Part shown: one piece after another, positions 24,805 through 48,528 of the stretch
How the letters are laid out: the number at the start of each line of letters is the position of its first letter
How positions within the stretch are numbered: the stretch's first letter is position 1
From: Hymenobacter siberiensis
GTDB taxonomy: Bacteria; Bacteroidota; Bacteroidia; Cytophagales; Hymenobacteraceae
Assembly (NCBI RefSeq): GCF_018967865.2
Contig: NZ_JAHLZY020000001.1
Location: forward strand, 4,278,001-4,342,000
Direction: 5' to 3'
DNA length: 64,000 nt
The notes under the pieces: generated by a model
What the model saw: only the letters and a program-made list of their open reading frames with translations
Told to the model about the DNA's origin: nothing
Database searches by the model: none
Translations under genes and position numbers: made by a program

Positions 24805-24888
24805 CGCGGACTTTTAGTCCGCGCGTTGCCTGGGAAGCTCCTTGCCACGCACGGCTTGACCATACGCGGACTTTTAGTCCACGCTACA
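24800..24888. repeat. Family B palindromic repeat, copy B2, supplying the DUF4833 stop
   Basis: TGTAGCGCGGAC-TTTTA-GTCCGCGC at the left end and CGCGGACTTTTAGTCCACGC-TACA at the right end flank a 41-bp spacer. The TAG stop codon of the DUF4833 gene (24802-24804) is the TAG of the element's first bases. Confidence 0.88.
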
Positions 24889-24945
24889 TGCCTTAGCCCT
24901 ATCTTTGGCCGGAGCCGTGCCCGGTGGGGCCGGCTGCCTCCGCGC

Positions 24946-28351: not shown

Positions 28352-29398
28352 CTACTCCATTACTTCGTAAATCTTTACCGGCAACGCCTTGTTCTTGAGT
28401 ACTACCTCATCAACATACTGGCAGTGAAAGGACCCTTTCACCTTAAAATACACGGCTTCGCTGATGATAACCTGGCCGGCTTTGGCGGCCGACTGCAGAC
28501 GCTGCGACATATTCACGACGTCGCCAATCACAGTGTAATCCAGGCGTTTGAGGGAGGCGGAGCCGATGTTGCCGGATACGACTTCGCCGGTGTTCACGCC
28601 GATGCTCACTTTGGGGCGGTAGTCGAAGCCGGGGGGCAGCGGGGCCTGGCTCTGCTGGAGCGCGGTGCGGGCCGAGAGAGCCGCATCGATGGCGCGGTCT
28701 AGGTGGTGCTCGCCCCGGAACACGGCCATCACGGCATCGCCCATGAACTTATCGACGTGGCCGCCCTGGGAAATAAACTCCTTCACTACCAAGTCAAAAT
28801 ACGTGTTGAGCAGGCTCACCACGTCGGTGGGCGGCAGCTTTTCGGCCAGCGAGGTAAAGCCGCAGATATCGAGAAAAACCACGGTGGCTTCCACAGTTTC
28901 GGAGGCCAGGAGGCGGTTTTCGAAGTCGGGCCGCGTCATGAAATTGAGCACGGTTTCATCGACGTACATCTTCAGGATGTTGTTTTCCTGGATGGCGCGG
29001 AGCGTGTCGCGCAGCTGGCGCACCTGCTCGGCGGTTTTTTCGATGGTGAGTTCCAGGTCGGCAAAATCGACGGGTTTCACCACGAAATCGAACGCGCCCC
29101 GGTTCATGGCGATGCGCAGGTTGCCCATGTCGCCGTAGGCCGATACGATGACCGTTTTCATGGCCGGGTACTCGGTGTGGGTGTGGGTGAGCAGGGTGAG
29201 GCCATCCATCACCGGCATGTTGATGTCGGAGAGAATGACATCGGTATCCGGATTTTCGAGGATGCGGTCGAGGGCTTCCTGGCCGTTGGTGGCGAAGACA
29301 AACTCGTAGGTACTCTCCCGGATTTTGCGCCGAAACTTCTGCTTGATAAGCAGTTCGAGGTCGGCTTCGTCATCGACCACCAGAATCTTGGTTTTCAT
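28352..29398 (-). CDS. Response regulator with class III adenylate/guanylate cyclase output
   Basis: This 348-residue cytoplasmic protein has a receiver domain (residues about 3-120) with phospho-acceptor Asp58 in LSDINMP and the conserved Lys in VVKPVDF. A class III cyclase domain spans residues about 168-345. Metal-binding Asp177 (FLDICGF) and Asp221 (FMGDAVM), Lys217, Thr289 (DYTVIGD) and the Asn296/Arg300 pair (NMSQR) are all present, so it should be active. The Lys/Thr specificity pair is typical of bacterial class IIIb adenylate cyclases, making cAMP the likelier product. It is the last gene of the kinase array and so the probable output. It is convergent with a cNMP-binding transporter gene. 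Confidence 0.92.
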   Translation of the reverse strand: MKTKILVVDDEADLELLIKQKFRRKIRESTYEFVFATNGQEALDRILENPDTDVILSDINMPVMDGLTLLTHTHTEYPAMKTVIVSAYGDMGNLRIAMNRGAFDFVVKPVDFADLELTIEKTAEQVRQLRDTLRAIQENNILKMYVDETVLNFMTRPDFENRLLASETVEATVVFLDICGFTSLAEKLPPTDVVSLLNTYFDLVVKEFISQGGHVDKFMGDAVMAVFRGEHHLDRAIDAALSARTALQQSQAPLPPGFDYRPKVSIGVNTGEVVSGNIGSASLKRLDYTVIGDVVNMSQRLQSAAKAGQVIISEAVYFKVKGSFHCQYVDEVVLKNKALPVKIYEVME

Positions 29399-29484
29399 AA
29401 GGATTGGCAGAAGGCCGAATAGTTGGACAAAAATACGTCGGAAAAGGATGGCACTTAGATTACCGCTCCCCTTTCTATGTTGGC

Positions 29485-29862
29485 TTAGGGCAGCAGGTGC
29501 TGAAGCTTTTCCTTGAGCACGGCAAAATCGACGGGCTTGGTCAGAAAATCGTTGGCCCCCAGGCTCATGGCCTGCTGGTAGCTGGCATTGTCGCCGTAGG
29601 CCGTAATCATTATCATGGTGGTGGGCGGCATCTCAAACTCCTCCTTGACGTGGCCGAGCAGGTCGAGGCCGCTCATGCCGGGCATGTTGATGTCGGAGAG
29701 AATGATGAGCACCTCGGATTGGTGGGCGCGCAGATACGTCAGGGCTTCCTCGCCCGAAAAAGCGAAGCTGAAGCTCATCTCGCCGTTGCGGATTTCGCGG
29801 CGAAAGCGCTGCAAAAACAGGTCGCGCACATCGGTTTCATCATCAACAACCAGAATTTGCAT
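29485..29862 (-). CDS. Single-domain response regulator (receiver only)
   Basis: This 125-residue protein is a lone receiver domain with acidic pair DDE, phospho-acceptor Asp57 in LSDINMP, and the conserved Thr/Ala-Tyr and Lys positions in MITAYGD and LTKPVDF. It closely resembles the receiver of the next gene, the cyclase, and has no output domain. Such proteins usually shuttle or sink phosphoryl groups or act through protein binding. It follows the last kinase of the array by 51 bp, so it is the first receiver encoded after eight kinases. Confidence 0.93.
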   Translation of the reverse strand: MQILVVDDETDVRDLFLQRFRREIRNGEMSFSFAFSGEEALTYLRAHQSEVLIILSDINMPGMSGLDLLGHVKEEFEMPPTTMIMITAYGDNASYQQAMSLGANDFLTKPVDFAVLKEKLQHLLP

Positions 29863-29913
29863 GGGGCGGAGGCTGGAAAAGTAGTCGGGGCCAAAGGTAG
29901 GGCGCGGACCGGC

Positions 29914-31908
29914 TTAGGCCGGCAGGCGGATGAGGAATTCGGTGCCCTCGCCCTCGCGGGTTTCTAAGGTGAGGGTGCCGCCGTGGCCCTTAGTCACTAT
30001 TTCGTGGCTCATGGACAGGCCCAGGCCCGTGCCCTCGCCCACGGGCTTGGTGGTGAAAAACGGCTGGAATATTTTGGCTTTCACCTTGTCAGACATGCCC
30101 GTACCATTGTCGCGAATGCTGATTTCGACCTGTTCCGCCACCACCCGGCTACTCACCGTGAGGGCCGGCTGGTACCCGGGCCCAGAGTGGCGGCGCTGGC
30201 GCTGCTGCATGGCATGAAAGGCGTTGGTAAACAGGTTAATGAGAACCCGAATCAGGTCCTGCGTCACCACCGACATTGGCGGCAGGGCGGGGTCGAGCCG
30301 GGTGATAAACTCGGCGTTAAAATCTTTATCCTTCGTGCGCAGGCCCTGGTAGGCCAGGCACAGGCTTTCCTCGATGAGGGAGTTGAGGTTGGTGGGCTCG
30401 CGCTGGCCGCTGCCGGTGCGGGAGTGCTCCAGCATGCCCTTGATGATGGACGTGGCCCGCTGCCCGTGCTGGCTGATTTGCTGCAGGTTCAGCTTCAGGC
30501 CATCCAGAATTTCGCGTTCCAGGGTGATGTCGCGGGCGGAGTTGTGGGGGGCGCCGTTGATTTCGTCTACCAGCTCGGCACTTACTTCGGCGAAGTTTTT
30601 CACGAAGTTGAGCGGGTTTTGCAGCTCGTGGGCAATGCCAGCCGTGAGCTCGCCCAGAAAGGCCATTTTCTCGCGCTGCACCAGCTGGTCCTGGGCCGTT
30701 TTGAGCTCGGCCAGCGACTGCTCCAGCGCCATGCGGGCGCGCCGCTGCTGGCGGCCGTGCCGGGCCAGAATCACGGCCAGCACCAGCAGGCCCACCAGCC
30801 CGGCCACCAGCGCGGCAGTGCGGTAGCGGGCCCGCAGCGCGGCATGGCTGGCGGCCACTTCCTGCGTGCGCTGCTGCTCGCGGTAGTTGAGGCTTTGCAG
30901 GCGCATCACCTTCTCCTGGCCAAACAGCGTGTCCTTCATCACCAGCATGAGGCTCTGGTACTTGAGGGCGCTGTCGGGGCGGCCGCGCTGTTTAAAATCC
31001 TTGGTAAGCAGCGTGCTGGCGTTGAGCACGCCGCGCAGAAAACCATTGTTCTGGGCCGCCTGGCAGCCCAGCCGGGCGTAGTAAATACTGGAATCGGGCT
31101 GCCCGGTTTGCTGGTACAGCTCGGCCAAGCCCACGTAGGCGAAATTGAGGCTGCGCAGGTGGTGTACCTTCTTCGACTCGGCGATGCTTTGGCGGTAGTA
31201 CGTGCGGGCCGGCGCCACCTGGCCGCTCTTGCGGGCCACGTTGCCCAGGCCGTACAGAATGTAGTTGGTGGGGGTGTGCAGGCGGCGGGCCAGGGCGTAG
31301 GCGCGTTCCTGAAAAATCCGGGCCGAATCGAGCTGGCCGAACAAGTCATACGCCAGGCCAATGTTGCTCAGCTCAATCACCGTGCGGTACTCGTCGTGCA
31401 GCTGCTCGCCAATTTTCAGGGCCCGGAAGTAGTAGGCCAGGCCTTGGCGCTTGTCGCGCAAGTACACGTAGATTATGCCGATGCTGCGCAGGTTCTGGGC
31501 AATCAGGCCCTGGTCGTGGGTGGTTTCGGCAATGTGCAAGGACTGCTGAAACACCTCCAGCGAGCGCGCCAGGTTGCTCTCGCGCAGGGCGGCCCCCAGG
31601 CGGTTGAGGGCCGCGCCCTCGCCCTGCCGGTAATGGATGCGGCGGGCCAGAGCCAAGGCCTTGTTGGCGTACACGGCGGCCGAGTCGGTGTGCTGGGTCC
31701 AGAGCTGGTCGCTGATTTGGCAGAGCAGCGTCACGCGGTTGAAGTCGGTCTGGGGCAGCGTCAGCAGGTGGCGCAGGCTGTCTACGGCCACTCCCGGCGA
31801 CGGGATTCCGGCCACCACCGGCTTTGGGCCGGCTACCAGCACAGCCAACCAGATGCCCAGCCAGCCAAGCCTACGGAAAGCTGAAATCCGGGAAATAATA
31901 GAAATCAA
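29914..31908 (-). CDS. TPR sensor histidine kinase (array member 8, HK8)
   Basis: This 664-residue protein has an N-terminal signal or anchor segment, about eight TPRs outside the membrane (residues about 60-330), and one transmembrane helix (about residues 370-387, ALVAGLVGLLVLAVILA). A coiled coil, the HisKA domain with phospho-acceptor His427 in [13 protein letters not shown], and the HATPase domain (N box LINLFTNAFHAM, D box RDNGTGM, G box [14 protein letters not shown]) follow. All kinase boxes are intact. Its sensor is not closely related to the A/B types at 32110-41427. It is the array member nearest the two receiver genes, so it may be the original partner. Confidence 0.92.
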   Translation of the reverse strand: MISIISRISAFRRLGWLGIWLAVLVAGPKPVVAGIPSPGVAVDSLRHLLTLPQTDFNRVTLLCQISDQLWTQHTDSAAVYANKALALARRIHYRQGEGAALNRLGAALRESNLARSLEVFQQSLHIAETTHDQGLIAQNLRSIGIIYVYLRDKRQGLAYYFRALKIGEQLHDEYRTVIELSNIGLAYDLFGQLDSARIFQERAYALARRLHTPTNYILYGLGNVARKSGQVAPARTYYRQSIAESKKVHHLRSLNFAYVGLAELYQQTGQPDSSIYYARLGCQAAQNNGFLRGVLNASTLLTKDFKQRGRPDSALKYQSLMLVMKDTLFGQEKVMRLQSLNYREQQRTQEVAASHAALRARYRTAALVAGLVGLLVLAVILARHGRQQRRARMALEQSLAELKTAQDQLVQREKMAFLGELTAGIAHELQNPLNFVKNFAEVSAELVDEINGAPHNSARDITLEREILDGLKLNLQQISQHGQRATSIIKGMLEHSRTGSGQREPTNLNSLIEESLCLAYQGLRTKDKDFNAEFITRLDPALPPMSVVTQDLIRVLINLFTNAFHAMQQRQRRHSGPGYQPALTVSSRVVAEQVEISIRDNGTGMSDKVKAKIFQPFFTTKPVGEGTGLGLSMSHEIVTKGHGGTLTLETREGEGTEFLIRLPA

Positions 31909-32109
31909 CGAATTGGTTCTAAGGGGAAAAAAAGTGACTGATACCGCCGGCGCTTATTCACCAAGCCACCGGCCAAAGCCCCGCCCAAACCGCCAAATAC
32001 AGCCAATGGTTCAGTAGCTTAGCAGTGAAATCCTGTGGTAGAACCAGAAAAGAGAGCAGCACAGCGGCTGGTGTGCCGAGCAAGGCCGGGCCGGAGGCAT
32101 TGCCAGTAA

Positions 32110-34497
32110 TCAGCCTGTTTGATTAATAGGCAAGCTAATCAGAAACTTGGTAAAACTGCCTTCCTCCGACGTCACGGAGAGCGTGCCGCCGTGGCCCTGC
32201 GTCACAATATCATAGCTCAGCGACAGGCCCAGGCCCGTGCCCTCGCCGGTGGGCTTGGTGGTGAAAAAAGGCTGAAATATTTTGGCCCGCACGGCCTCGG
32301 GAATGCCCTGGCCGTTGTCGCGCACCCGGATTTCCACCTTCTCACCCACCCGCCGGGTGCTGATGCCCACGGTGGGCGCGTAGCCGGCCACGCCGCGCTG
32401 CTGGCGCTGGCGCACGGCATAAAACGCGTTGCTGAGCAGGTTGAGCAGCACCCGGCCCAGGTCCTGGGCAATAACCTCGACAGGCGGCAGGACGGGGTCG
32501 AAATCGGGCTTGAGCGTGGCGTTGAAGGTTTTGTCTTTGGCGCGCAGGCCGTGGTAGGCCAGGCGCAGGTACTCGTCGGCCAGCTGGTTGAGGTTGGTGG
32601 GCGTGCGCTCGCCGGAGCTGGTGCGCGAGTGCTCCAGCATGCCCCGCACAATGCTGGCCGCCCGCCCGCCGTGCTGGCTGATTTTGAGCAGGTTCTGCTT
32701 GAGGTCGGTCAGCAGCTCGGCTTCCAGCTCCAGGTCGCGGTCGGGTTTCTGTTGCTCTTCTTCCAGCTCGGTGATGAGCTCGGCGCTGACCTCGGCAAAG
32801 TTATTAACGAAGTTCAACGGGTTCTGAATCTCGTGGGCAATGCCCGCCGTGAGCTCGCCCAAACTCGCCATCTTCTCGGCCTGAATGAGCTGGGCCTGCG
32901 TGGTGCGCAGCTCCGTCAGGGAGGCGTCGAGCTGGTCGCGCTGGGTCTGCAGGCCTTGTTTCTGATGGGTGACGGCCGCGTTGAGCTCGTTGAGCTACTC
33001 GTTGGCGAACTGCTTTTGGCGGTTGGCGCGCCAGAGGACGAAGCCCAGGCCCGCCAGCAACGCCAGCACCGCCAGCGTGGCCCCCAGCAGCAGGCGCTGG
33101 CGGCGGGCGCGGGCGGCGTCCTGCACCTGGGCCAAGCGCAAGGCGGCGATGCGCTGCTGCTGGGCCTGCTCGGCACGCTCGGCTTCGTAGCCGGCCACGT
33201 GAAAGGCGCCTTGCTGGGTGCTGAGCGAGTCGCTCAGGGCCAAGCCGAGGCGGGCGTAGCGGCCGGCGGGTTCGGTTTGCCCACGCTGGACGTAGAAGTC
33301 GGCCAGCGCGCGCAGGTAGGACAGCCGCAGGGGCACCAGCTTGGCTTCGCGGGCCTTGCGGTAGGCCGTGAGCCAATCGGTTTCGGCGCGGACCGGCTCG
33401 TTACGGGCGACGTAGTAGCGCGCCCAGGTGGCATCGAGCTCAAAGGAGCCGTTGGAGGAAGTGAGGCCCATCTTGAGCGAATCGGCCAAGTGCTGCGCCC
33501 GCACCAGCAGGGGTCTGGCATCGGCTACGCGGCCTATGTCGAGCAGCACCGCGCTTTCGGCCACCAGCCCATAGGCACGCATCTGAAGCACGAAACTGGC
33601 CATGTCGCGGAGGGTGTCAGCGGGGCTATTCGCCCCCGAGAGCCGGGCGTAGCGCAGGGCAGCGGGGTAGTCGTGCAACTGGCGATAGGCCTGGGCCATG
33701 CCCCGGTAAGTGTACGCCAGGGAGGAGGTGAGCCGGTCGTACCGGGAGGGGTGTGCAGCCAGCAAGGAGCGGTGTACAGCCAGCGACTTGCGCAGATAGT
33801 ACAGGGCCTTGGCCGAGTTGCCCCATTCGGCGTAGCAGTAGCCGACCACTTTCAACTCATTTTCTTGAAACCACCGGTCGTAGGTGACGGCCAAGTCCGC
33901 CGCGCGCAGGTAGTGGCTGATGGCCCGGTTGTAATCTCCCTGTTCCAAGAAAGGGCCGCCCAGCGCATGGTAGCTGCGGGAAGTGTTTTCCCGGGCACCG
34001 CGGGCTTGGTACCGTGCCAGCTTGGCTTCGAAATAGGCTGTTTGCGCCGCCCGCTGCTTGAGCCGTCGGAAATAAGACGCCACCGCTGCGAGTACGAACG
34101 GAATGGGCCGCCCCACGCGGTCGAACACTTCGACCGCCGCCCGCATGCTGTCGAGGGCGCGCGCGGGCTCCGCCTGGGCGAGCCGCGCCGCAGCATAGCT
34201 CAGGCGGAAGGCGGGGGCATCAGGACGCTGCTGCCGGCGCGTGAGCTGCACCAACTCCCCTAATTGTGGGCCTAAAGACACGTTAAAGAGGAGGCTCGGA
34301 GTATCGTAGAGGTGCAGCAGGGTGCGCAGTCGGGCCGTATCGGCGCGCTGGGTGGCCAGCACCCGGCGCAGCGAGTCCGGGTTGGCCTCCCAGTAGCGGC
34401 GGCTGGACTGGGCGGCCAGCGGGCCGCTGAGCAGCAGGAGGAACACCAGCGGCAGCCAGCACCGGCGGGCCGGCGGGCGTGGGGGAAAAGAGGACAC
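32110..34497 (-). pseudogene. TPR histidine kinase of type A, split by an in-frame amber codon (HK7)
   Basis: One frame runs from a GTG at 34497 to 32110 but has TAG at 32995-32997 (codon 501), just after the transmembrane helix. The close paralogue at 36764-39133 reads ANEQLNE where this gene reads ANE*LNE, so a single CAG to TAG change is responsible. The upstream 500-residue part keeps the signal peptide, TPR sensor and membrane helix. The downstream part has an ATG at 32871 that would give a 253-residue soluble kinase (MASLGELTAG, His555 in joined numbering) with all catalytic boxes intact. Loss of function, two separate products or read-through are all possible. Its last 60 residues (ending SLPINQTG) differ from the array's usual SLPA end. 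Confidence 0.85.
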
Positions 34498-34499
34498 GG

Positions 34500-36761
34500 C
34501 TAAGCGGGTAAGGAAATGGTGAAGGTGGTGCCCTGGCCGGGCTGGCTCTCGACGGTGAGGCTGCCGCCGTGGCCTTGCACTACGATATCGTGGCTGAGCG
34601 AAAGCCCCAGGCCCGTGCCCTCGCCCGTGGGCTTGGTGGTGAAAAAAGGCTGGAAGATTTTCTGCTGCACCTCGGGCGGCATGCCCGAACCGTTGTCCGT
34701 CACCCGGATTTCGACGTGGCCGTTCGCGCGCGCGGTGCCCACGCCGACGGTGGGCGCGTAGCCCGCCTCGCCCAGCTGCTGGCGCTGGCGCACGGCGTAG
34801 AAGGCGTTGGTGAACAGGTTCAGCAGCACCCGGCCCAGGTCGCCACTCACGGCATCGACCAGGGGCAGAGCCGGCACGAAGTCGGTTTCCAGCGTGGCGT
34901 TGAACGTCTTGTCTTTAGCCCGAAGCCCGTGGTAGGCCAGGCGCAGGTACTCGTCGGCGAGCTGGTTGAGGTCGGTCGGCGCCCGCTCGCTGGTGCTGGC
35001 CCGGCTGTGTTCGAGCATGCCCCGCACGATACCGGCCGCCCGCTGCCCGTGCTGGTTGATTTTGACCAGGTTCTGGGTCAGGTCGTCGGCCAACGCCATG
35101 ACTTCTTCAAAGTCGCCTGCGGCCTGGGCTTCTTTCAGCTCCGTTAGCAGCTCGGCGCTGACCTCGGCAAAGTTATTAACGAAGTTCAACGGGTTCTGAA
35201 TCTCGTGGGCAATGCCCGCCGTGAGCTCCCCCAGGCTGGCCATTTTCTCGGCCTGAATGAGCTGGGTTTGCGTGGTCTGCAAATTCTTCAGCGCCTGCGC
35301 GGTTTCGTCGCGCTGGGCTTCCAGCTGCGCGTTGGCTTGCTGCTGGCGGCGATTGCCGCGCCACAACACGAAGCCCAGGCCGGCCAGCAGGGCCAGCACG
35401 GCCAGCGCGGCGCCCAGCAGCAGGCGCTGGCGCCGCGCCCGGGCCGCGTCCTGCACCTGGGCCAGGCGCAGGCCCGCGATGCGCGCCTGCTGGGTTTGTT
35501 GAGCCTGGTCGGTTTCGTAGCGCGTTACATTCAGGGCACCTTCGGCCGCCCGCAGGGTGTCGGCCAGGCCCAGGGCCGCCAGCGCGTAAGTGGCCGCCAC
35601 GGCCGGCCGGCGGTGCTGCTGGTAGAAGCGGGCCAGCTCGTGCAGATAGGCCAGGCGCCCCGAGGCGAAACCGCCCTGCCGGACCGTGCGGGAAGCAGCC
35701 AGCCAGTAGCTTTCGGCGCGGGCGTTGTCGCCCAGGGCCTCGTAATACCGCGCCCAAGTCGCCTCCAGCTCCAAAGTGCCGTAGCCGCTGCGGAAAGGCA
35801 ACTGGAGCGAGTCGGCCAGGTACTGGGCCGTGCGCAGCAGCGGTCCGGCTTCGCGCGGGCGCCGCTGCGCCAGCAGCACCGCGCTTTTTAGCACCAGTGC
35901 AATGGGTTTTAACGTAGCATCGTTGGTGGTATCACGGGCTGCGGCCGCCAGGGCCCGGTCGATGGCGTGCAGCGCGGCCGGATAATTATGCACTTGCAGC
36001 TGCACCGCGGCCATCTGCAGGTTCCGGTAGCTATCGTCCGGGTTGCCTTGCCCCGCCAGGGACTGCCGCAGATAATACAGCGCCTTGTCCAGGTTGCCCC
36101 ACTCGGCATACAACTGGCCAGCCGCCGCGAACTCATCGCGGGAAGTGCCCCTACTAAAAGCTCGGTACCCTTCGGCCGCTTGCAGGTAATAGCCAATGGC
36201 CTGGTTGTAGTTGCCCAGCGAGTTGTAGTAGCCGGCCAGGCCATGGTAGCAGGCCGTCATGCTGACGGCATCGCCCCGCCGGCGGTAGGTAGCCAGCTGA
36301 CTTTCGTAATAGGCCCGCTTGGCTTGCGGCTGGCCCGCGGCGTTGAACAGGAAGCGGATGGAAATCAGCTGCCACGGCACCGGCCGGTGCAGGCGGTCGA
36401 GCGCGGCAATGGCCGCCTGCAGGCTATCGAGGGCGGGAACAACCGCTCGGCGTGCAGCGAGCTGTTTGCCGTGCAGCAGCAGGCGGTAGGCCCGGTGCTC
36501 GGGCCGGTGCAGGCGGCCCGATAAGGCGCTCAACTCGGCGAGGTGAGCGATATTACCCTCTCCAGTATCCACCAAATGCATCAGCGTGCGCAGGCGGGCC
36601 GTATCGGTGCGTTGGGTGGCCAGCACCCGGCGCAGCGAGTCCGGGTCGGCCTCCCAGTAGCGGCGGCTGGACTGGGCGGCCAGCGGGCCGCTGAGCAGCA
36701 GGAGGAACACCAGCGGCAGCCAGCACCGGCGGGCCGGCGGGCGTGGGGGAAAAGAGGACAC
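34500..36761 (-). CDS. TPR sensor histidine kinase, type B (HK6)
   Basis: This 753-residue protein starts with GTG, 2 nt after the stop of HK5. It has a signal peptide ending LAAQ (residue 30), a periplasmic TPR sensor (about 60-430), a transmembrane helix (447-466, LLLGAALAVLALLAGLGFVL), a coiled coil (470-505), HisKA with phospho-acceptor His519 (AHEIQNPLNFV), and HATPase with N box LLNLFTNAFYAV, D box TDNGSGM and G box [14 protein letters not shown]. It is nearly identical to the type B copy at 39136 except for roughly residues 60-145. No receiver is fused or adjacent. Activation probably responds to something bound by the TPRs. Confidence 0.93.
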   Translation of the reverse strand: MSSFPPRPPARRCWLPLVFLLLLSGPLAAQSSRRYWEADPDSLRRVLATQRTDTARLRTLMHLVDTGEGNIAHLAELSALSGRLHRPEHRAYRLLLHGKQLAARRAVVPALDSLQAAIAALDRLHRPVPWQLISIRFLFNAAGQPQAKRAYYESQLATYRRRGDAVSMTACYHGLAGYYNSLGNYNQAIGYYLQAAEGYRAFSRGTSRDEFAAAGQLYAEWGNLDKALYYLRQSLAGQGNPDDSYRNLQMAAVQLQVHNYPAALHAIDRALAAAARDTTNDATLKPIALVLKSAVLLAQRRPREAGPLLRTAQYLADSLQLPFRSGYGTLELEATWARYYEALGDNARAESYWLAASRTVRQGGFASGRLAYLHELARFYQQHRRPAVAATYALAALGLADTLRAAEGALNVTRYETDQAQQTQQARIAGLRLAQVQDAARARRQRLLLGAALAVLALLAGLGFVLWRGNRRQQQANAQLEAQRDETAQALKNLQTTQTQLIQAEKMASLGELTAGIAHEIQNPLNFVNNFAEVSAELLTELKEAQAAGDFEEVMALADDLTQNLVKINQHGQRAAGIVRGMLEHSRASTSERAPTDLNQLADEYLRLAYHGLRAKDKTFNATLETDFVPALPLVDAVSGDLGRVLLNLFTNAFYAVRQRQQLGEAGYAPTVGVGTARANGHVEIRVTDNGSGMPPEVQQKIFQPFFTTKPTGEGTGLGLSLSHDIVVQGHGGSLTVESQPGQGTTFTISLPA

Positions 36762-36763
36762 GG

Positions 36764-39133: not shown

Positions 39134-39135
39134 GG

Positions 39136-41427
39136 CTAAGCGGGTAAGGAAATGGTGAAGGTGGTGCCCTGGCCGGGCTGGCTCTCGACGGTGAGGCTGC
39201 CGCCGTGGCCTTGCACTACGATATCGTGGCTGAGCGAAAGCCCCAGGCCCGTGCCCTCGCCCGTGGGCTTGGTGGTGAAAAAAGGCTGGAAGATTTTCTG
39301 CTGCACCTCGGGCGGCATGCCCGTGCCATTGTCCGTCACCCGGATTTCGACGTGGCCGTTCGCGCGCGCGGTGCCCACGCCGACGGTGGGCGCGTAGCCC
39401 GCCTCGCCCGCCTGCTGGCGCTGGCGCACGGCGTAGAAGGCGTTGGTGAACAGGTTGAGCAGCACCCGGCCCAGGTCGCCACTCACGGCATCGACCAGGG
39501 GCAGGGCCGGCGCAAAGTCGGTTTCCAGCGTGGCGTTGAACGTCTTGTCTTTAGCCCGAAGCCCGTGGTAGGCCAGGCGCAGGTACTCGTCGGCGAGCTG
39601 GTTGACGTCGGTCGGCGCCCGCTCGCCGGTGCTGGCCCGGCTGTGTTCGAGCATGCCCCGCACGATACCGGCCGCCCGCTGCCCGTGCTGGTTGATTTTG
39701 ACCAGGTTCTGGGTCAGGTCGTCGGCCAACGCCATGACTTCTTCAAAGTCGCCTGCGGCCTGGGCTTCTTTCAGCTCCGTTAGCAGCTCGGCGCTGACCT
39801 CGGCAAAGTTGTTGACGAAGTTCAACGGGTTCTGAATCTCGTGGGCAATGCCCGCCGTGAGCTCCCCCAGGCTCGCCATTTTCTCGGCCTGAATGAGCTG
39901 GGCCTGCGTGGTCTGCAAATTCTTCAGCGCCTGCGCGGTTTCGTCGCGCTGGGCTTCCAGCTGCGCGTTGGCTTGCTGCTGGCGGCGATTGCCGCGCCAC
40001 AACACGAAGCCCAGGCCGGCCAGCAGGGCCAGCACGGCCAGCGCGGCGCCCAGCAGCAGGCGCTGGCGCCGCGCCCGGGCCGCGTCCTGCACCTGGGCCA
40101 GGCGCAGGCCCGCGATGCGCGCCTGCTGGGTTTGTTGAGCCTGGTCGGTTTCGTAGCGCGTTACATTCAGGGCACCTTCGGCCGCCCGCAGGGTGTCGGC
40201 CAGGCCCAGGGCCGCCAGCGCGTAAGTGGCCGCCACGGCCGGCCGGCGGTGCTGCTGGTAGAAGCGGGCCAGCTCGTGCAGATAGGCCAGGCGCTCCGAG
40301 GCGAAACCGACCCGCCGGACCGTGCGGGAAGCAGCCAGCCAATAGCTTTCGGCGCGGGCGCTGTCGCCCAGGGCCTCGTAATACCGCGCCCAGGTCGCCT
40401 CCAGCTCCAAAGTGCCGTTGCCGCTGCTGAAAGGCAACTGGAGCGAGTCGGCCAGGTGCTGGGCCGTGCGCAGCAGCGGTCCGGCTTCGCGCGGGCGCCG
40501 CTGCGCCAGCAGCACCGCGCTTTTTAGCACCAGTGCAATGGGTTTTAACGCAGCATCGTTAGCGGTATCACGGGCTGCGGCCGCCAGGGCCCGGTCGATG
40601 GCGTGCAGCGCGGCCGGATAATTATGCACTTGCAGCTGCACCGCGGCCATCTGCAGGTTCCGGTAGCTATCGTCCGGGTTGCCTTGCCCCGCCAGGGACC
40701 CCGCCAGGGACTGCCGCAGATAATACAGCGCCTTGTCCAGGTTGCCCCACTCGGCATACATCTGGCCAGCCGTCGCGAACTCATTGAGGGAAGTGCCCCT
40801 ACTAAAAGCTCGGTACCCTTCGGCCGCTTGCAGGTAATAGCCAATGGCCTGGTTGTAGTTGCCCAGCAAGTAGTAGTAGCCGGCCAGGCCATGGTAGCAG
40901 GCCGTCATGCTGACGGCATCGCCCCGCCGGCGGTAGGTGGCCAGCTGGCCTTCGTAATAGGCCCGCCTGGCTTGCGGCTGGCCCGCGGCGTTGAACAGGA
41001 AGCGGATGGAAATCAGCAGTATCGGCACCGGCCGGTGCAGGCGGTCAAACTCCGCGATGGCCGCTTTCAGGCTGTCGAGCGCGGGAATCAGGACCTTGCG
41101 TTGGAGGAGTTGGTTACCGTGCAGCAGCAGGCGGTAGGCTCGCTGCTCGGGGCGATGCAGGCGGCTGGTCAGGGCAACCAGCTCTTCGTAGTCTCGTTCC
41201 TGCATTGCGCCTTCGCTCGCAACCGGGGCTAAATTGGCCAGGTGCTGGAGGGTGCGCAGACGGGCCGTGTCGGCGCGCTGGGTGGCCAGCACCCGGCGCA
41301 GCGAGTCGGGGTTGGCCTCCCAGTAGCGGCGGCTGGACTGGGCGGCCAGCGGGCCGCTAAGGAGCAGGAGGAACACCAGCGGCAGCCAGCACCGGCGGGC
41401 CGGCGGGCGTGGGGGAAAAGAGGACAC
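39136..41427 (-). CDS. TPR sensor histidine kinase, type B (HK4)
   Basis: This 763-residue sister of the kinase at 34500 has the same order: signal peptide, TPR sensor, membrane helix, coiled coil, HisKA (phospho-acceptor His529) and HATPase. It carries a 12-bp tandem duplication giving SLAGSLAG near residue 240, and a longer N-terminal TPR segment (APVASEGAMQERDYEELVAL) that its sister lacks. From the HisKA domain to the C-terminus it is almost identical to the next upstream kinase at 41430, which has a different sensor. GTG start, 2 nt after the stop of that kinase. Confidence 0.93.
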   Translation of the reverse strand: MSSFPPRPPARRCWLPLVFLLLLSGPLAAQSSRRYWEANPDSLRRVLATQRADTARLRTLQHLANLAPVASEGAMQERDYEELVALTSRLHRPEQRAYRLLLHGNQLLQRKVLIPALDSLKAAIAEFDRLHRPVPILLISIRFLFNAAGQPQARRAYYEGQLATYRRRGDAVSMTACYHGLAGYYYLLGNYNQAIGYYLQAAEGYRAFSRGTSLNEFATAGQMYAEWGNLDKALYYLRQSLAGSLAGQGNPDDSYRNLQMAAVQLQVHNYPAALHAIDRALAAAARDTANDAALKPIALVLKSAVLLAQRRPREAGPLLRTAQHLADSLQLPFSSGNGTLELEATWARYYEALGDSARAESYWLAASRTVRRVGFASERLAYLHELARFYQQHRRPAVAATYALAALGLADTLRAAEGALNVTRYETDQAQQTQQARIAGLRLAQVQDAARARRQRLLLGAALAVLALLAGLGFVLWRGNRRQQQANAQLEAQRDETAQALKNLQTTQAQLIQAEKMASLGELTAGIAHEIQNPLNFVNNFAEVSAELLTELKEAQAAGDFEEVMALADDLTQNLVKINQHGQRAAGIVRGMLEHSRASTGERAPTDVNQLADEYLRLAYHGLRAKDKTFNATLETDFAPALPLVDAVSGDLGRVLLNLFTNAFYAVRQRQQAGEAGYAPTVGVGTARANGHVEIRVTDNGTGMPPEVQQKIFQPFFTTKPTGEGTGLGLSLSHDIVVQGHGGSLTVESQPGQGTTFTISLPA

Positions 41428-41429
41428 GG

Positions 41430-42812
41430 CTAAGCGGGTAAGGAAATGGTGAAGGTGGTGCCCTGGCCGGGCTGGCTCTCGACGGTGAGCGTGCCGCCGT
41501 GGCCTTGCACTACGATATCGTGGCTGAGCGAAAGCCCCAGGCCCGTGCCCTCGCCCGTGGGCTTGGTGGTGAAAAAAGGCTGGAAGATTTTCTGCTGCAC
41601 CTCGGGCGGCATGCCCGTGCCATTGTCCGTCACCCGGATTTCGACGTGGCCGTTCGCGCGCGCGGTGCCCACGCCGACGGTAGGCGCGTAGCCCGCCTCG
41701 CCCGCCTGCTGGCGCTGGCGCACGGCGTAGAAGGCGTTGGTGAACAGGTTCAGCAGCACCCGGCCCAGGTCGCCACTCACGGCATCGACCAGGGGCAGGG
41801 CCGGCGCAAAGTCGGTTTCCAGCGTGGCGTTGAACGTCTTGTCTTTAGCCCGAAGCCCGTGGTAGGCCAGGCGCAGGTACTCGTCGGCGAGCTGGTTGAC
41901 GTCGGTCGGCGCACGCTCGCCGGTGCTGGCCCGGCTGTGTTCGAGCATGCCCCGCACGATACCGGCCGCCCGCTGCCCGTGCTGGTTGATTTTGACCAGG
42001 TTCTGCTTGAGGTCGCCCAGCAGCTCGGCTTCCAGCTCCAGGTCGCGTACGGAGCGGGTTTGCTCTTCTTCCAGCTCCTCCACCAGCTCGGCGCTGACCT
42101 CGGCAAAGTTGTTGACGAAATTCAACGGGTTCTGAATCTCGTGGGCAATGCCCGCCGTGAGCTCCCCCAGGCTCGCCATTTTCTCGGCCTGAATGAGCTG
42201 GGCCTGCGTGGTGCGCAGCTCCACGAGGGCCCCGCTCAGCTCCTGGGCCTGCTGCGTGAGGGCGGCGGTGCGCTCGGCCACCAGGCGCTCCAGCTCCACG
42301 TTTTGGGCCTCGATGAGGCGTTTGGCTTTTTCTTCCTCTTCGCGCAGCACCCGCTCTTTTTCGAGCTGCTTTTTCTGGCTGCGGGCAATGAAAACAAACG
42401 TAATCAGCCAGATGATGACAAAGCCCTGCGTTGTACCAAGGAAGGCATCGAAGCTCTTGGGAATCTTACCGTTGGAATCTTCAATAATGATTTCGAGCAC
42501 TTTGTAGACCACAAACGGGGCCGTGGCAAACAGCAGCGTACGCGCCGGGCGGTAGTGCCGCACGGCCAGCAGCACGCCCAGCAGGGCAAACAATACCAGC
42601 AGCCAGTACACATCGCCCAGCACCGGCGATTTGAACCTGAGCGCCACCGAAATGAACACAAACGCCGCCGCCGGCACCCAGATATAATTCAGCGCCCGGT
42701 GCCAGCGCGGCAGCCGCTGCGGCAGGTCCAGAAACCGGCTCAGGCCGCGCATGATGCCATACGCCATCGGAGCCAGGTAAAAAAGGTCGCCGTAACCAGC
42801 CGAGTGAGCCAT
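41430..42812 (-). CDS. Multi-pass membrane histidine kinase sharing the type B kinase core (HK3)
   Basis: This 460-residue kinase has no TPRs. Residues about 1-155 form an integral membrane sensor of about five helices (WVPAAAFVFISVALRF, VYWLLVLFALLGVLLAV and GFVIIWLITFVFIA among them). A charged coiled coil (ERVLREEEEKAKRLIEAQNV), HisKA with phospho-acceptor His224, and HATPase follow. From about residue 200 the sequence is nearly the same as the type B TPR kinase next to it. The gene thus looks like a sensor swap onto a shared catalytic core, or conversion of the core. The ATG at 42812 (MAHSAGYGD) is preferred; the frame extends to 42872. The 138-bp gap upstream contains a GGGCCCG/CGGGCCC hairpin but no clear terminator. 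Confidence 0.9.
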   Translation of the reverse strand: MAHSAGYGDLFYLAPMAYGIMRGLSRFLDLPQRLPRWHRALNYIWVPAAAFVFISVALRFKSPVLGDVYWLLVLFALLGVLLAVRHYRPARTLLFATAPFVVYKVLEIIIEDSNGKIPKSFDAFLGTTQGFVIIWLITFVFIARSQKKQLEKERVLREEEEKAKRLIEAQNVELERLVAERTAALTQQAQELSGALVELRTTQAQLIQAEKMASLGELTAGIAHEIQNPLNFVNNFAEVSAELVEELEEEQTRSVRDLELEAELLGDLKQNLVKINQHGQRAAGIVRGMLEHSRASTGERAPTDVNQLADEYLRLAYHGLRAKDKTFNATLETDFAPALPLVDAVSGDLGRVLLNLFTNAFYAVRQRQQAGEAGYAPTVGVGTARANGHVEIRVTDNGTGMPPEVQQKIFQPFFTTKPTGEGTGLGLSLSHDIVVQGHGGTLTVESQPGQGTTFTISLPA

Positions 42813-42950
42813 AGGGGAAGAAGCGCAGAAGCAAGAAAGTAGAGCAGAGAAACGGCGCGCGGGCCACCGCAAAGTTGGGTAGTGCGGCTGAATTTTTCCC
42901 GGGCCCGGTTTCGGGCCCGCCCAAACGGCTGAAATCTACTACCCCCGCCG

Positions 42951-45134
42951 TTAAGCTTTGCCGCCAGTTGGCAGACTGATGATGAATTCGGTGCCTTTGC
43001 CCTCTTCGCTTTCCACGGCCAGGGTGCCGCCGTGGCCCTTGGTCACAATCTCGTGGCTGAGCGACAGGCCCAGGCCTGTGCCCTCGCCCATCGGCTTGGT
43101 GGTGAAGAAGGGCTGAAAGATTTTTTCCCGCACCTGCGCCGGCATTCCCGTGCCGTTGTCATGCACGGTAATTTCGACGGTGCCGGCGGCGGTCTGGCGC
43201 GTCCCCACCGTCACGGTGGGCTGGTAGGCCACTTCGGCTGCTTCGGCCTGCTGGCGCACGGCGTGCAGGGCATTGGTGCACAGGTTTACCAGCACGCGGG
43301 TGAGGTCGGAGGGCACCACGGCTACCAGCCCCAGATTGGGGGTAAAGTCCTGCACCAGCGTGGCATGGAAGGTGGCGTCCTGCACGCGCAGGCCCTGGTA
43401 GGCCAGCGCCAGCGCCTCGGCCACCAGGGCATTGAGCTCGGTGGGCACGCGCGGCCCCGCGCCGGTGCGGGCATGAGCCAGCATATCGGTGATGATGGCG
43501 GAAGCCCGCTGGCCCTGCTGGCTGATTTTGAGCAGGTTCTGCTTCAGGCCAGCCATAATTTCCTGTTCCAGGCCGGCGGGCTGCGCGGCGGGGCTGTGGT
43601 CGAGCAGGCCCACGCTCACATCGGCAAAGTTTTTCATGAACGCCAACGGGTTCTGCAGCTCATGGGCAATGCCGGCCGAAAGCTCGCCCACAAAAGCCCA
43701 TTTCTCGGCCGCTACCAGCTGGCTCTGGGCGGCGTGCAGCTCGTCCTGCTGGTGCTTGAGCAGGGCGTAGGCCCGCTGCTTTTCGCGATTGTTGCGCCAG
43801 AGCACGGCGCTTAGGGTGCCCACGGCCCCCAGGCCCAGCAGGGCGGCCAGCAGCAGCCAGCCCTGCTGGCGGTTCTGGGATTGAATGAGCCAGCTGTTGC
43901 TAGTGAGCCGGCCAATCTGGGCTTGCTTCTTGGCCAGCTCGGCGCGGTATTCCAGCACGGCGGCCTGGCGCTGCAGGTCGCTGCTGTTGAGGGTGTCGCG
44001 ATAGGCGCCAAACAACTTTTCGTAGCGGTAGGCGGCCGCAAAATTACCGCGCCGGGCCGAGGCCTGCGCCAGTATCTGGCTGGCGTCGCGGCTATATTGC
44101 CGGGCCCCACTGCGGCGCGTGGCCTGCAAGGTGCGCAGGGCGTAAAAAATGGCGCTATCCGGGCGGCCGATGTGTAGAAAAGTACGGGCCAGCACCAGCT
44201 CTGCCCGGGGCACTTCGCCCACGGCGCGCAGGCGCAGGGCGAGCCGCAAGCTGCGGCGGGCGTTGGCAAACGCTTCGGGGTAATGGCCCTGCCGCTCTTC
44301 CATATCAGCAACGTTAATTCCCTCGAACAACAGCCCGCCCTCGTCCTTCAGCTGCCGGAATATCTTGGCATCCTGCTCGTAGTTGTACTGGGCGGTGGCC
44401 CACTGTCCCTGGGTGCGGTAGAGGTTGCCCAGCCCGGAATAGGCATGGCCGATGCCGGGCTGGTCGCCCGAGCGCCGGGCCCAGTACAGGCCCTGCGTGA
44501 GGTAGCGCCGGGCATTCTCATACTCGCGCAGATAGGTACTGGTAATGCCCAACTGGGTGTTGAGAAAGGCCAGCCATTTGGGGCTGTGGACTGCCTCGGC
44601 CAGGGCCAGGCCACGCAGGTTGGCCTGCAGGGATTTGGCGTACAGGCCCTGTTCCGAATACACGTTCGACTGGTTGTAGAGGCTGCGGGTTTGCCCGATG
44701 CGGTCGCCCACCCGCTCAAAATCGCGCCGGGCCTGCTCCGAAAAGCTCTCGGCCAAAGGGAACTCGCTGCGGTGGCGGTGGTAAAACCCAAGGCCCAGCT
44801 CGGCCTCGGCCGCGCCGGCGGTGTAGCCCAGCAGCTGCGCCAGCTGGCGCGCCTCCTCAAACAGGCTGGCCGACTCGTCGGGTGCGTTGTTGCGCAGCTC
44901 CAGGGCCAGGGCGTTGAGGCTGTTGACGCGAGAGGCATCGGGTTGGATATTAGCCTGCACCTTGGCCCGGAGGCGGTCGGTGGCGGGGTTTTGGGCGTGC
45001 ACAGAAGGGGGGGTGCTCAGCAGCACGCCAATGGCCACGGCCGCGCGCAGGCCCCAATCCAGCGCCGCGCGGCGCAGGCCCATGGCCCAGCTGGTGGTGG
45101 CGCGGCGGCCCGTCTGGTTGGCTGGCTTCTCCAC
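42951..45134 (-). CDS. TPR sensor histidine kinase (HK2)
   Basis: This 727-residue protein has a signal segment ending VHAQ, about eight TPRs (for example LYNQSNVYSEQGLYAKSLQA and AYSGLGNLYRTQGQWATAQ), a transmembrane helix near residue 430 (LLLAALLGLGAVGTLSAVLW), HisKA with phospho-acceptor His491 ([11 protein letters not shown]), and HATPase with D box HDNGTGM and G box [14 protein letters not shown]. The GTG at 45134 is 3 nt after the stop of HK1; an ATG at 45083 would give a more compact signal peptide and is a good alternative. Its sensor resembles HK8 more than the A/B types. Confidence 0.92.
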   Translation of the reverse strand: MEKPANQTGRRATTSWAMGLRRAALDWGLRAAVAIGVLLSTPPSVHAQNPATDRLRAKVQANIQPDASRVNSLNALALELRNNAPDESASLFEEARQLAQLLGYTAGAAEAELGLGFYHRHRSEFPLAESFSEQARRDFERVGDRIGQTRSLYNQSNVYSEQGLYAKSLQANLRGLALAEAVHSPKWLAFLNTQLGITSTYLREYENARRYLTQGLYWARRSGDQPGIGHAYSGLGNLYRTQGQWATAQYNYEQDAKIFRQLKDEGGLLFEGINVADMEERQGHYPEAFANARRSLRLALRLRAVGEVPRAELVLARTFLHIGRPDSAIFYALRTLQATRRSGARQYSRDASQILAQASARRGNFAAAYRYEKLFGAYRDTLNSSDLQRQAAVLEYRAELAKKQAQIGRLTSNSWLIQSQNRQQGWLLLAALLGLGAVGTLSAVLWRNNREKQRAYALLKHQQDELHAAQSQLVAAEKWAFVGELSAGIAHELQNPLAFMKNFADVSVGLLDHSPAAQPAGLEQEIMAGLKQNLLKISQQGQRASAIITDMLAHARTGAGPRVPTELNALVAEALALAYQGLRVQDATFHATLVQDFTPNLGLVAVVPSDLTRVLVNLCTNALHAVRQQAEAAEVAYQPTVTVGTRQTAAGTVEITVHDNGTGMPAQVREKIFQPFFTTKPMGEGTGLGLSLSHEIVTKGHGGTLAVESEEGKGTEFIISLPTGGKA

Positions 45135-45137
45135 AGC

Positions 45138-47375
45138 TCAGGCGGGCAGGGTGATGAGGAATTCGGTGCCTTCGCCCTCGCGGGTTTCTACGGTGAGGGT
45201 ACCGCCGTGGCCCTTGGTCACGATGTCGTAGCTCAGCGACAAGCCCAGGCCGGTGCCCTCGCCGGGCGGCTTGGTGGTGAAGAAGGGCTGGAAGATTTTT
45301 TCCCGCACCTGCTCCGACATTCCCGTGCCGTTGTCAGAAATCAGGATTTCCACCACCGGGCTACCGGCAGCGCGGCGGGTGCGCACCGTCACGGTGGGCT
45401 GGTAGTTGGCCGGCCCGCCGGCTCCCGGCTGCGCCAGGTCGCGCTGGCGCTGGCGCACGGCGTGCAGGGCGTTGGTGCACAGGTTCAGCAGCACGCGGCC
45501 CATATCCTGCGTCACCATCACTACCTGCTCCAGGCTGGGGTCGAGCTCCTTGCTCAGGGTGGCGTAAAAGTCTTTGTCGGTGGTGCGCAGGCCCTGGTAA
45601 GCCAGCGCCAGCGAATCGGCGGCCAGCGCGTTTAGGTCGCCGGGCACGCACTCGCCGGTGCCGGAGCGCGAGTGCTCCAGCATGTCCTTAATAATGGACG
45701 ATGCCCGCTGCCCGTGCTGGCTGATTTGCTGGAGGTTTTGCTTCAGGCCGGCCAGAATCTCGGTTTCCAGCACCGGCACGTGGCCATTGTGCTGCGGGTT
45801 CATGCCGTCGACGAGGTCGGTGCTGACTTCGGCGAAGTTTTTCATGAAGTTGAGCGGGTTTTGCAGCTCGTGGGCAATGCCGGCCGTGAGCTCGCCCAGG
45901 AAAGCCATTTTCTCGGCCTGCACCAGCTGGCTCTGCGTTTGGCGCAGCTGGTCCAGGGTGCGCCGGTTCACCTGCAGCTGGCGATAGATAAACACGCCCA
46001 GGGCCGACACCAGCAGCACCGTGAGCAGGGCGCCCAGCAGCAGCCACTGGCCCAGGCGCAGGCGCATGGCCTGCACCGCCTGGTCCTGTTTCAGGCTGGT
46101 AATTCGGGCGTTCTGGGTTTGCTCCAGCCGCTCGCTTTCGTACTGCGCCACATGAAAAGTGTTCTGGGCCGCATTGAGGGTATCGGTGAGGGCGATGTAG
46201 GCGTGGGAGTAGCGCTGCGCCTCGGCCGGCCGGTTGCGGTCGTCGTAGAAGGCAATGAGCTGCTTCAGGTATTCGGGCCGCAGGCGCTCAACGCGGCCGG
46301 CCGTGGCCTTGCGATAAGCCTGTAGCCAGTGCTTTTCGGCGCGGGCATCGTCGTGCCGGGCCGTGTAATACCGGGCCCAGGCGGCATCCAGCTCAAACTC
46401 GCCGGGCCTGCCCGACATGGGGATGTGCAGCGAATCGTCGAGCTGCTGCGCCTGCTGCAGGAGCTGGCCCGCCGACGCTACCCGCTGCATTTGCAGCAGC
46501 ACCCGCCCCTTTTGCACCAGCGCATAGGCCTGGCTGAGCTTGCGCTCGGCGGCATCGCCGCTGTGGGTGGCCAGCACCGAATCCACCATGCGCAGGGCGG
46601 TATTGGGGTGGTTGCCCTCGGCGTAGAGGCGCGACAGCGCCAGAAAGGTAAATACCCGCTCCAGGCCCTGGATGCGCCGAAACTCCGGCAGGCGCAGGGC
46701 CTGGCCCAAGTACTGCACGGCCTTGGCGCGGTTGCCCCAGTCGGCGTACACGGCCCCGGTCACCAGCAGCTCACGCACGTAGAGCAGCCGGTCGTAGGTG
46801 CGCACCAGGTCGGCGGCGCGCAGCACGCTGTTTAGGGTGCGATTGTAGTCGCCCATGCGCCGGTAGTAGCCGCCCTGCGACACGTAGCAGGCGGCGATGT
46901 TCTCGGTGGCGTTGTGCACCCGGTAGTAGGCCAGCTTTTTCTCGTAGTAGCGCTGGCGGGAATCCATGCGGCTCAGCCGGTTGTAGAGCGTCACCAAATC
47001 AATCAGCAGCCACGGAATGGGCCGGCCCAGGCGGTCGAATTCCGTCACGGCTACCTTCATGGTATCCAGGGCGGCCGCATCGGCGCCACCTTGCTGCCAC
47101 AGCACCAGGCCGTTGCGCAGGTGCCGGTAAGGGGCCGCCTCCAGCAGCTGCAGTTTCTGGTTCAGACGCAGCAGCTGGTCGAGCAGCGGCAGGGCCTGTA
47201 CGTTGGTGGGGTGCAGGTCTATCAGGTGCTGCACCACCCGCAGGCGGGCCATGTCAGAAGCCTGTTGCGGCAAGGCACGGGTCAGCGAATCATAATCGGC
47301 CTCCCAGTAGTGCTGCCGGCCAACCGCCGGCCCACACATCACCCAGAAAATCAACACCGTAAGAATCCATCTCAT
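45138..47375 (-). CDS. TPR sensor histidine kinase, first gene of the array (HK1)
   Basis: This 745-residue protein starts at the ATG that gives a signal peptide ([19 protein letters not shown]); the frame extends upstream to 47591 without one. The sensor is a distant relative of the A/B types ([16 protein letters not shown] near the N-terminus, [14 protein letters not shown] later). It has one transmembrane helix ([20 protein letters not shown]), HisKA with phospho-acceptor His502, and an intact HATPase ([31 protein letters not shown]). As the promoter-proximal gene of a same-strand array with mostly 2-3 nt gaps, it may represent the ancestral copy of the A/B expansion. Confidence 0.92.
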
Positions 47376-47916
47376 ATACAAAGCTGGGGCTTGACGGCGA
47401 CGGGGAAACGCGTACCCTGTCCGTACTGTATTGCTGGTCGCGGCCACGGTAGCCGGAACGAAAAGCAATAGGATTGGCAGGACATCATCAGGGGCAGAAG
47501 CGAGTGGGAACTGGGCGAAAATTACGGCCAGACCGCCGGGGCGGACAACACCAACAGGGCCCGACGGTGTGCCGGCCCGCATTGGTCGCACAAAGATGAA
47601 TTAATTACGCCACTCCGCTTTTAACAGACATCATTAAGTCAGTATATTACCTTCATTTTCAATATATTACTTGCTAAAAACCTGTTTGACGAAATTAATT
47701 TCCTCCTTCATAACTAGCGGGCCAAATTCGATACCTAATCAAGGTAGCGAATAATTTTGCCTTGTAATAAATCATATCTAAATTTATTGCAGCTTCTTAA
47801 TTTCTCAGCAGTAGTGCATTAGTAGCCGCCATTGGGCCCGGTTTTGACTTGCCCCTGCTTTTTCAACCGGCCTGCTCCGCCTCGTTTCATCCCCTCACCG
47901 CATTCGCCCCTTCCCT
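47376..47916. promoter_or_regulatory. Intergenic region upstream of the kinase array, AT-rich core
   Basis: This 541-bp gap separates divergent genes. From about 47600 to 47830 it is strikingly AT-rich compared with the GC-rich flanks (for example TTGTAATAAATCATATCTAA), as expected for a promoter region. I cannot place a confident Bacteroidota -33/-7 promoter. The segment nearest the kinase is GC-rich and open in frame but lacks coding features. Confidence 0.45.
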
Positions 47917-48528
47917 ATGCAAGCCTCCTCTGCCGAAGCGTTTATTGTGCGCGAGCTGCGCCGGGGCCTGGCCCCCACCCTCTACTACCACAGCCTGGCC
48001 CATACCCTCGACGTGGCGCAGGCGGCCCAGACGCTGGCCGCCGCCGAAGGCGTGACCGATGCCGAAACCCTGGCGCTGCTCCGCACGGCGGCCCTGTACC
48101 ACGATGCGGGCTTCCTGCACACGTACGCGGGCCACGAAACCCGGGGCTGCGAGATGGGCCGTGCCACGCTGCCGGACTTCGGCTACTCGCCGGGCCAGAT
48201 TGAGCTGATATGTGCCCTGATTATCGCCACCCAGTACCCGCAGGCCCCCCGCTGCCACCTGGCCCAAATCCTCTGCGATGCCGACCTCGACTACCTCGGC
48301 CGGCCCGATTTCGTGCCCATCTCCACCAGCCTTTTCCGCGAGCTGACGGTCCGCCAGCTTATCGCCGACGAATTTGCCTGGTTTCAGCTGCAGGAGCAGT
48401 TCCTCACGGGCCATCGGTATTGGACGGCCACGGCCCTGGCCCGGCGCAGCACGCCCAAGCAGGCCCGGCTCGCGCACATCCGGGCGCGCCTGGCGGCCTG
48501 GCCCGGCCCGCAGCAGGACGGTGCTTAA
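47917..48528 (+). CDS. HD-domain phosphohydrolase-like protein
   Basis: This 203-residue cytoplasmic protein has an HD-type metal site: YYHSLAHTLDV (first His), LYHDAGF (the His-Asp doublet) and CDADLDYLGR (distal Asp). Such proteins hydrolyse phosphodiester or phosphate-ester bonds of nucleotides, and the pattern resembles predicted metal-dependent HD phosphohydrolases. The substrate is unknown. It is divergent from the kinase array and convergent with the MoeB-like gene. A link to cyclic nucleotide breakdown is possible but is only inferred from the neighbourhood. Confidence 0.82.
   Translation: MQASSAEAFIVRELRRGLAPTLYYHSLAHTLDVAQAAQTLAAAEGVTDAETLALLRTAALYHDAGFLHTYAGHETRGCEMGRATLPDFGYSPGQIELICALIIATQYPQAPRCHLAQILCDADLDYLGRPDFVPISTSLFRELTVRQLIADEFAWFQLQEQFLTGHRYWTATALARRSTPKQARLAHIRARLAAWPGPQQDGA

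Follow-up and report, generated by a model that had tools for sequence, protein, structure and literature searches.

The window analysed here, 64,000 nucleotides of the 4.83 Mb genome of Hymenobacter siberiensis, carries eight HisKA/HATPase histidine kinase genes (HK1 to HK8) lying head to tail on the minus strand, followed by a stand-alone receiver (REC) and then by a receiver fused to a class III cyclase (REC-cyclase). A preliminary description of the stretch had reported this order, intact kinase boxes in all eight genes and differing sensors, and Pfam searches bear it out. The comparisons described below favour, with rather more confidence than doubt, the reading that the locus is an expanded form of a conserved module, a many-input two-component system with exchangeable sensor heads and with cyclic AMP (cAMP) as its predicted output. 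A bolder reading is put forward tentatively, in which the array would diversify inputs by continually re-pairing sensor cassettes through recombination while concerted evolution holds the cores to one cAMP switch, and cAMP would gate a dedicated neighbouring transporter resembling ATP/ADP translocators (NTT). Neither this neighbour, a cyclic nucleotide-binding (CNB) protein, nor the mosaic nature of the kinases had been part of the preliminary description.

All eight kinases score above the Pfam cut-offs for both HisKA and HATPase_c. HK1 (45138..47591) has 817 residues from a GTG codon, and its start possibly lies near 47375, the first ~75 codons being less conserved against the nearest other species; it has an H-box, shows weak TPR matches alone and belongs to the dimerisation-domain (DHp) subclass [14 protein letters not shown]. 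HK2 (42951..45134) has an H-box, a TPR sensor and a DHp of the type here called KNF. HK3 (41430..42872; 480 residues), also with an H-box, has a multi-helix sensor with four hydrophobic segments found and without a TPR match, and is close in size to the single kinase of most relatives. TPR sensors are joined to NNF-type DHp domains in HK4 (39136..41427) and HK5 (36764..39133), both placed by Pfam and by comparison with G072, a second genome of the same species; HK6 (34500..36761) has a TPR match and, by core alignment, a core 97% identical to that of HK4. HK7 (32110..34497), which also matches TPR, is the kinase earlier described as split upstream of its kinase domain: a single in-frame stop separates the membrane segment (sensor part 32995-34497) from the kinase domain (kinase part 32110-32871), and its counterpart in G072, s6, is open. 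HK8 (29914..31908), with an H-box, a TPR sensor and a KNF-type DHp, adjoins the receiver. The gaps between kinases are, in array order, 3, 78, 2, 2, 2, 2 and 201 bp (the last, before HK8, from coordinates), with 51 bp from HK8 to REC and 86 bp from REC to REC-cyclase. Among the NCBIfam families listed for eight proteins, none reached its cut-off.

The kinases form one family. When HK3 was searched against its own genome, the top eight matches (at least 305 bits) were the eight array genes, and the ninth scored 188 bits. PF00512 (HisKA) gave 41 matches in the genome at E 0.01 and, on inspection of the list by eye, no run of more than two outside the array, a count that covers PF00512-matching kinases, those without such a match not having been searched for. 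The search ranking and the lack of any other HisKA run above two rule out a chance origin of the kinase run. Core identity within the array ranges from 53 to 97%, with 90% between HK3 and HK4. The H-box region HEI[QK]NPLNF[VI][NT]NF recurs from Hymenobacter through Bradyrhizobium; KNF designates another DHp type, of the sequence [12 protein letters not shown][NS]F or similar, with a KSF variant in one species. A broken TPR-kinase akin to the array lies ~0.3 Mb from it (G000:C1:4626314-4629850, L239), its pieces standing in different frames at about 29-62% identity to array kinases.

The two proteins downstream have the features of response regulators, each with an acidic pair, a phospho-acceptor Asp and a Lys, just as the kinases have an H-box and HATPase_c. 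REC (29485..29862, minus strand, 125 residues) matches Response_reg at 81.3 bits, and REC-cyclase (28352..29398, minus strand) matches it at 75.7 bits. In REC-cyclase D9, D10, D58 and K108 are invariant among 12 REC-cyclases (L028 left out). Both array receivers carry the motif QxFRRxIR in their first helix, the place where specificity is read in other systems. This motif occurs in none of 50 other receiver matches of the genome with the first helix covered (51 were found; L302, with the helix not covered, was left out), and at 81 Hymenobacter loci, among proteins with a parsable start, a similar motif is carried by 75 of 80 RECs and by all 76 REC-cyclases. Its presence in both receivers points to a shared docking face, which is likely on these alignments.

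REC-cyclase is the single match to PF00211 in the whole genome (Guanylate_cyc, 79.6 bits against a cut-off of 21.9). Its K, T, two D, N and R (six of six) align with those of 5x4t, a photoactivated adenylyl cyclase of known structure that we take to be OaPAC; they are presumably the two metal-binding Asp, the substrate Lys and Thr, and the transition-state Asn and Arg. REC-cyclase thus has the catalytic residues of a class III adenylyl cyclase (IIIb-like), and its predicted product is cAMP rather than cyclic GMP (cGMP). The output earlier described as a cyclic nucleotide is narrowed to predicted cAMP. cGMP as the likelier product was considered and set aside, since the key residues align with an adenylyl cyclase.

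A strong REC-cyclase match was found in 99 of 120 genomes of the genus (in two pieces in G108), and 21 are without one. For the neighbourhoods, 80 places from 73 genomes were taken out of about 107 other full-length REC-cyclase places counted by eye, several contig-end ones and others being omitted without a set rule; the window brings the set to 81 loci, and REC adjoins the cyclase in 80 of them. In a close group of 21 loci, whose REC-cyclases are at least 85% identical, three to eight kinases precede the cyclase, fragments excluded. Among the 60 other loci, fragments included, nine hold no kinase, 36 one, 11 two, three three and one five; the script behind these counts breaks at long gaps, and gives the window a score of 2 and L095, whose kinase is broken, a score of 0. 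Many single kinases measure about 460-500 residues. These counts and sizes suggest that the ancestral module probably had one kinase and that large arrays are its expansion. Eight kinases, as first described, is not a fixed feature, seven being present in G072. At seven loci (L083, L094, L095, L098, L103, L104 and L106) a second, paralogous module consists of REC and REC-cyclase preceded by a single kinase (a broken one in L095), and an extra kinase of ~500-545 residues lies upstream on the opposite strand.

The module extends well beyond the genus. A scan of public genomes kept 80 loci, which overlap the genus set (L202 and L033 look like one species, H. artigasi). Of the loci L150-L197, all titled Bacteroidota, 47 of 48 have a REC-cyclase frame, with REC upstream in 44 of the 47. 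Where at least 1.5 kb of room was available (n=43), a kinase was found in 41 loci and two or more in 22; a lack of conserved kinases beside these receivers in related genomes, named in the preliminary description as a finding that would count against it, is not what these loci show. Among L198-L217, 19 have a REC-cyclase frame, one of them from Hymenobacter artigasi (L202). The remaining 18 come mainly from Alphaproteobacteria, with some from Myxococcota and other groups; 12 of them have REC and 15 a kinase. The order kinase(s)-REC-REC-cyclase is old. In L195 (Algoriphagus litoralis) the order is kinase-kinase-REC-kinase-REC-kinase-REC-REC-cyclase, an alternation in which REC seems to have been duplicated along with the kinases.

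Comparison with G072 separates a constant frame from a changing interior. HK1-HK3, HK8, REC and the cyclase are 96-100% identical to G072 per 150-nt stretch, and 67-100%, mostly above 85%, to the best other species, chiefly H. artigasi. The HK3 core is an exception: from about codon 253 it is 83-89% identical to other species, and from about codon 328 it is 99-100% identical to a paralogue in its own array, a pattern that, as read from these alignments, is a mark of concerted evolution. In the HK4-HK7 block a 5.4-kb stretch is repeated at 88%. The HK7 sensor segment at codons ~216-340 (33478..33852, minus strand) is found in G072 within another kinase, s4 (96-99% nucleotide identity), while the ends of HK7 match s6 at 95-100% and its core from about codon 536 onward at 99-100%. 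Conversely, the HK5 sensor segment at codons ~221-320 (38174..38473, minus strand) lies in G072 within s6 (94-96%), and the HK5 core from about codon 621 onward matches s4 at 94-100%. In these nucleotide alignments HK5 and HK7 against s4 and s6 have the pattern of a reciprocal exchange of sensor segments between two kinases. HK4 codons ~46-121 and HK5 codons ~331-406 and 581-606 have no match of at least 85% in the fetched G072 locus.

Mosaics were also found within single loci. Cores 90-99% identical are joined to unrelated or very different sensors within one locus in HK3/HK4 and HK3/HK6, and further pairs with like cores and unlike sensors occur in L032, L071, L099, L101 and L167. With a mosaic pair defined by at least two 30-residue stretches of at least 93% nucleotide identity plus two of at most 68%, such pairs occur in 13 of the 55 loci that hold at least two kinases, from which ten named Hymenobacter loci already represented in the genus set had been dropped. 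For kinases of multi-kinase loci, the closest core was found within the kinase's own locus in 28 of 174 cases; for the closest sensor the figure was 2 of the 159 that had a sensor match.

The array could also be viewed as a plain tandem duplication that is decaying, its kinases being recent copies of a single gene, one of them already broken, that add no inputs. The signal-peptide regions of HK4-HK7 are indeed near-identical, the cores are partly identical and HK7 carries a stop, all of which would fit. The sensors, however, differ: HK4 and HK5 are 38-68% identical in amino acids over codons 41-440, and neither the HK2 nor the HK3 sensor matched any other array sensor in a test set that excluded those of HK7 and HK8. 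Nonsynonymous divergence (dN) is below synonymous divergence (dS) in most divergent windows of the array-kinase comparison, and HK1, HK2 and HK8, together with the HK3 sensor half, are conserved in another species. Plain decay is therefore judged quite improbable.

Convergent to the array on the plus strand lies the CNB protein (24826..28269; start probably 24946, as in the 1107-residue form P0004), with a membrane domain of NTT/MFS fold, HEAT repeats and a cyclic nucleotide-binding domain. Pfam gives CNB (PF00027) at 77.5 bits and HEAT_2 at 36.4 bits. A Glu and an Arg in the phosphate-binding cassette are the rule for cyclic nucleotide-binding domains; here the cassette is intact, and E1044 and R1053 are invariant in 41 sequences. 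The predicted model and a fold match assign the ATP/ADP-translocator fold to the membrane part. No curated transporter family was matched, Pfam up to E 5 reporting CNB and HEAT alone, so the protein is called NTT-like and is not filed as an NTT. On these features it is likely a cAMP-binding, transporter-like protein.

Cyclase and CNB protein travel together. In the 120 genus genomes both are present in 99, neither in 20, the CNB protein alone in one and the cyclase alone in none. In a sample of the order, counted minus its 13 listed own-genus genomes, both occur in 16, the cyclase alone in 13, the CNB protein alone in three and neither in 149; in 13 of the 16 genomes with both, from other families of the order, the two genes lie at most 10 kb apart, in several orientations. 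In L053, L054, L058 and L059, REC and REC-cyclase stand without an adjacent kinase and the CNB protein lies ~13-16 kb further on, so something seems to have been inserted or moved. In L218 (a Candidatus Kapaibacterium metagenome-assembled genome) a frame of 1171 residues, which matches the NTT-like CNB protein weakly (63 bits), precedes a kinase and a 390-residue receiver protein, and no REC-cyclase frame was scored.

Several results weigh against the favoured reading. By the same rule, 42 of the 55 multi-kinase loci are without a mosaic pair, and when sensor and core pairing was compared among the 21 close loci, 183 cases were concordant, 4 discordant and 31 ambiguous; 4 discordant of 187 unambiguous comparisons indicate that, at this resolution, sensors and cores do re-pair between loci, though rarely. 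The mosaic junctions depend on the assemblies being correct. Of the 60 less close genus loci, nine score without a neighbouring kinase, one of these being L095 with its broken kinase. The genomes are not independent samples, so Fisher p values overstate significance, and the support is at the level of sequence comparison.

The neighbour supplies further such points. It is below the cut-off in 13 of the 29 cyclase-bearing order genomes outside the genus and the fetched stretch does not contain it at 34 of 47 Bacteroidota loci; the module must therefore have some output besides the transporter-like protein. Of the eight CNB matches in the genome, seven (one below the family cut-off) are other proteins, each a possible cAMP target, and one of these, in a 237-residue frame, is slightly stronger than the neighbour's own. 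A CRP-like regulator or some other CNB protein might accordingly carry the effect of the cyclase, with the transporter-like neighbour as no more than a passenger. Set against the near-perfect co-occurrence in the genus and the pairs found within 10 kb in varied orientations in other families, this account appears doubtful.

A final difficulty concerns the kinases themselves. In all 21 close arrays a KNF kinase stands first, in most one also stands last, and the NNF type is present as well, which may mean that each receiver has its own share of the kinases. Two pathways might then exist, NNF kinases serving one receiver and KNF kinases the other, with part of the array controlling the cyclase. 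KNF cores (KSF in one species) were parsed in the close group and in none of the parsed kinases of the 60 other genus loci, and REC differs between the two groups at a few positions, both of which agree with such a split. Single-kinase loci nevertheless keep both receivers, so that one kinase type presumably serves both, and the same first-helix motif is kept in both receivers. While the KNF/NNF division might divide the kinases, two separate pathways are considered unlikely.

In the favoured reading of a many-input, cAMP-output system, membrane kinases that differ in their sensors, most of them TPR domains preceded by a start resembling a signal peptide and one multi-helix, would all phosphorylate the same two receivers through their closely related dimerisation domains. 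The phosphorylated receiver would switch its own fused adenylyl cyclase, and the single-domain receiver may compete for, or store, phosphoryl groups. cAMP would bind the neighbouring transporter-like protein and change nucleotide transport, and perhaps bind other CNB proteins too. Unequal crossing-over and gene conversion would bring sensors in, remove them and join them to new cores. If every core acts on a common output, such changes would cause no miswiring, and the array interior could turn over fast while the outer kinases, REC and the cyclase stay constant. Sensor swaps that cost nothing in wiring, provided that the cores share receivers, would explain why the exchanges persist. The many-input, cyclic-nucleotide-output reading first proposed is supported in this form at the level of sequence comparison, and fits the conserved order and the shared receiver motif.

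Were this correct, the cell could change what is sensed and keep the same response. The usual picture of a two-component system is a kinase and a receiver insulated from other such pairs; here one output would be retained while sensor heads are traded among kinases. The trading seen between two genomes of one species would be a natural experiment on the wiring of new inputs. The proposed route from sensor through cAMP to a transporter-like protein would also offer a testable cyclic-nucleotide target in Bacteroidota.

Among known systems, Kasahara and Ohmori reportedly described in 1999 the cyanobacterial CyaC, an adenylate cyclase said to be activated by autophosphorylation and phosphotransfer. 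CyaC holds kinase and cyclase in one polypeptide. The present system resembles it in a class III cyclase putatively under histidine-kinase phosphotransfer control, and is not of the CyaC type: kinases, REC and REC-cyclase are encoded separately, the kinases are numerous and there is an additional free receiver. 5x4t and CyaB (3r5g), solved class III adenylyl cyclases with regulatory parts other than a receiver, are similar in the catalytic domain. Compared with the NTT ATP/ADP translocators AtNTT1 and Chlamydia pneumoniae NTT1, the CNB protein has 14% identity and added HEAT and CNB domains; a survey of bacterial NTT proteins has reportedly been published, and in the open-licence literature no description of the NTT+HEAT+CNB architecture was found. 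Several sensors feeding one receiver or phosphotransfer protein are described in the review PMC12471899 for Bacillus subtilis KinA-KinE/Spo0F and for Vibrio harveyi LuxN and LuxP/LuxU, with homology in the phosphotransfer domain of kinases that converge on one partner. In those systems the output is a transcription regulator, unlike the cyclase output and the single recombining tandem array considered here. Phosphotransfer-controlled cyclases and many-to-one kinase networks are thus known separately; a tandem recombining kinase array with a cyclase and an NTT-like CNB neighbour was not found described in the open-licence literature, most subscription journals lying outside that search.

Some further genes were noted. 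On a small contig of the host genome, two open frames (G000:C3:53946-54674 and C3:108626-109351) each join a receiver to a cyclic nucleotide-binding domain and are each directly preceded by a HisKA kinase; they may be additional points at which phosphotransfer is connected with cyclic nucleotides. In the window, an HD-domain protein (47917-48528, plus strand; PF01966, 36.8 bits) is divergent from HK1 and may be a phosphohydrolase beside the cyclic-nucleotide module. An ice-binding-like protein (PF11999, 119 bits) is encoded at 21773-23071 on the minus strand.

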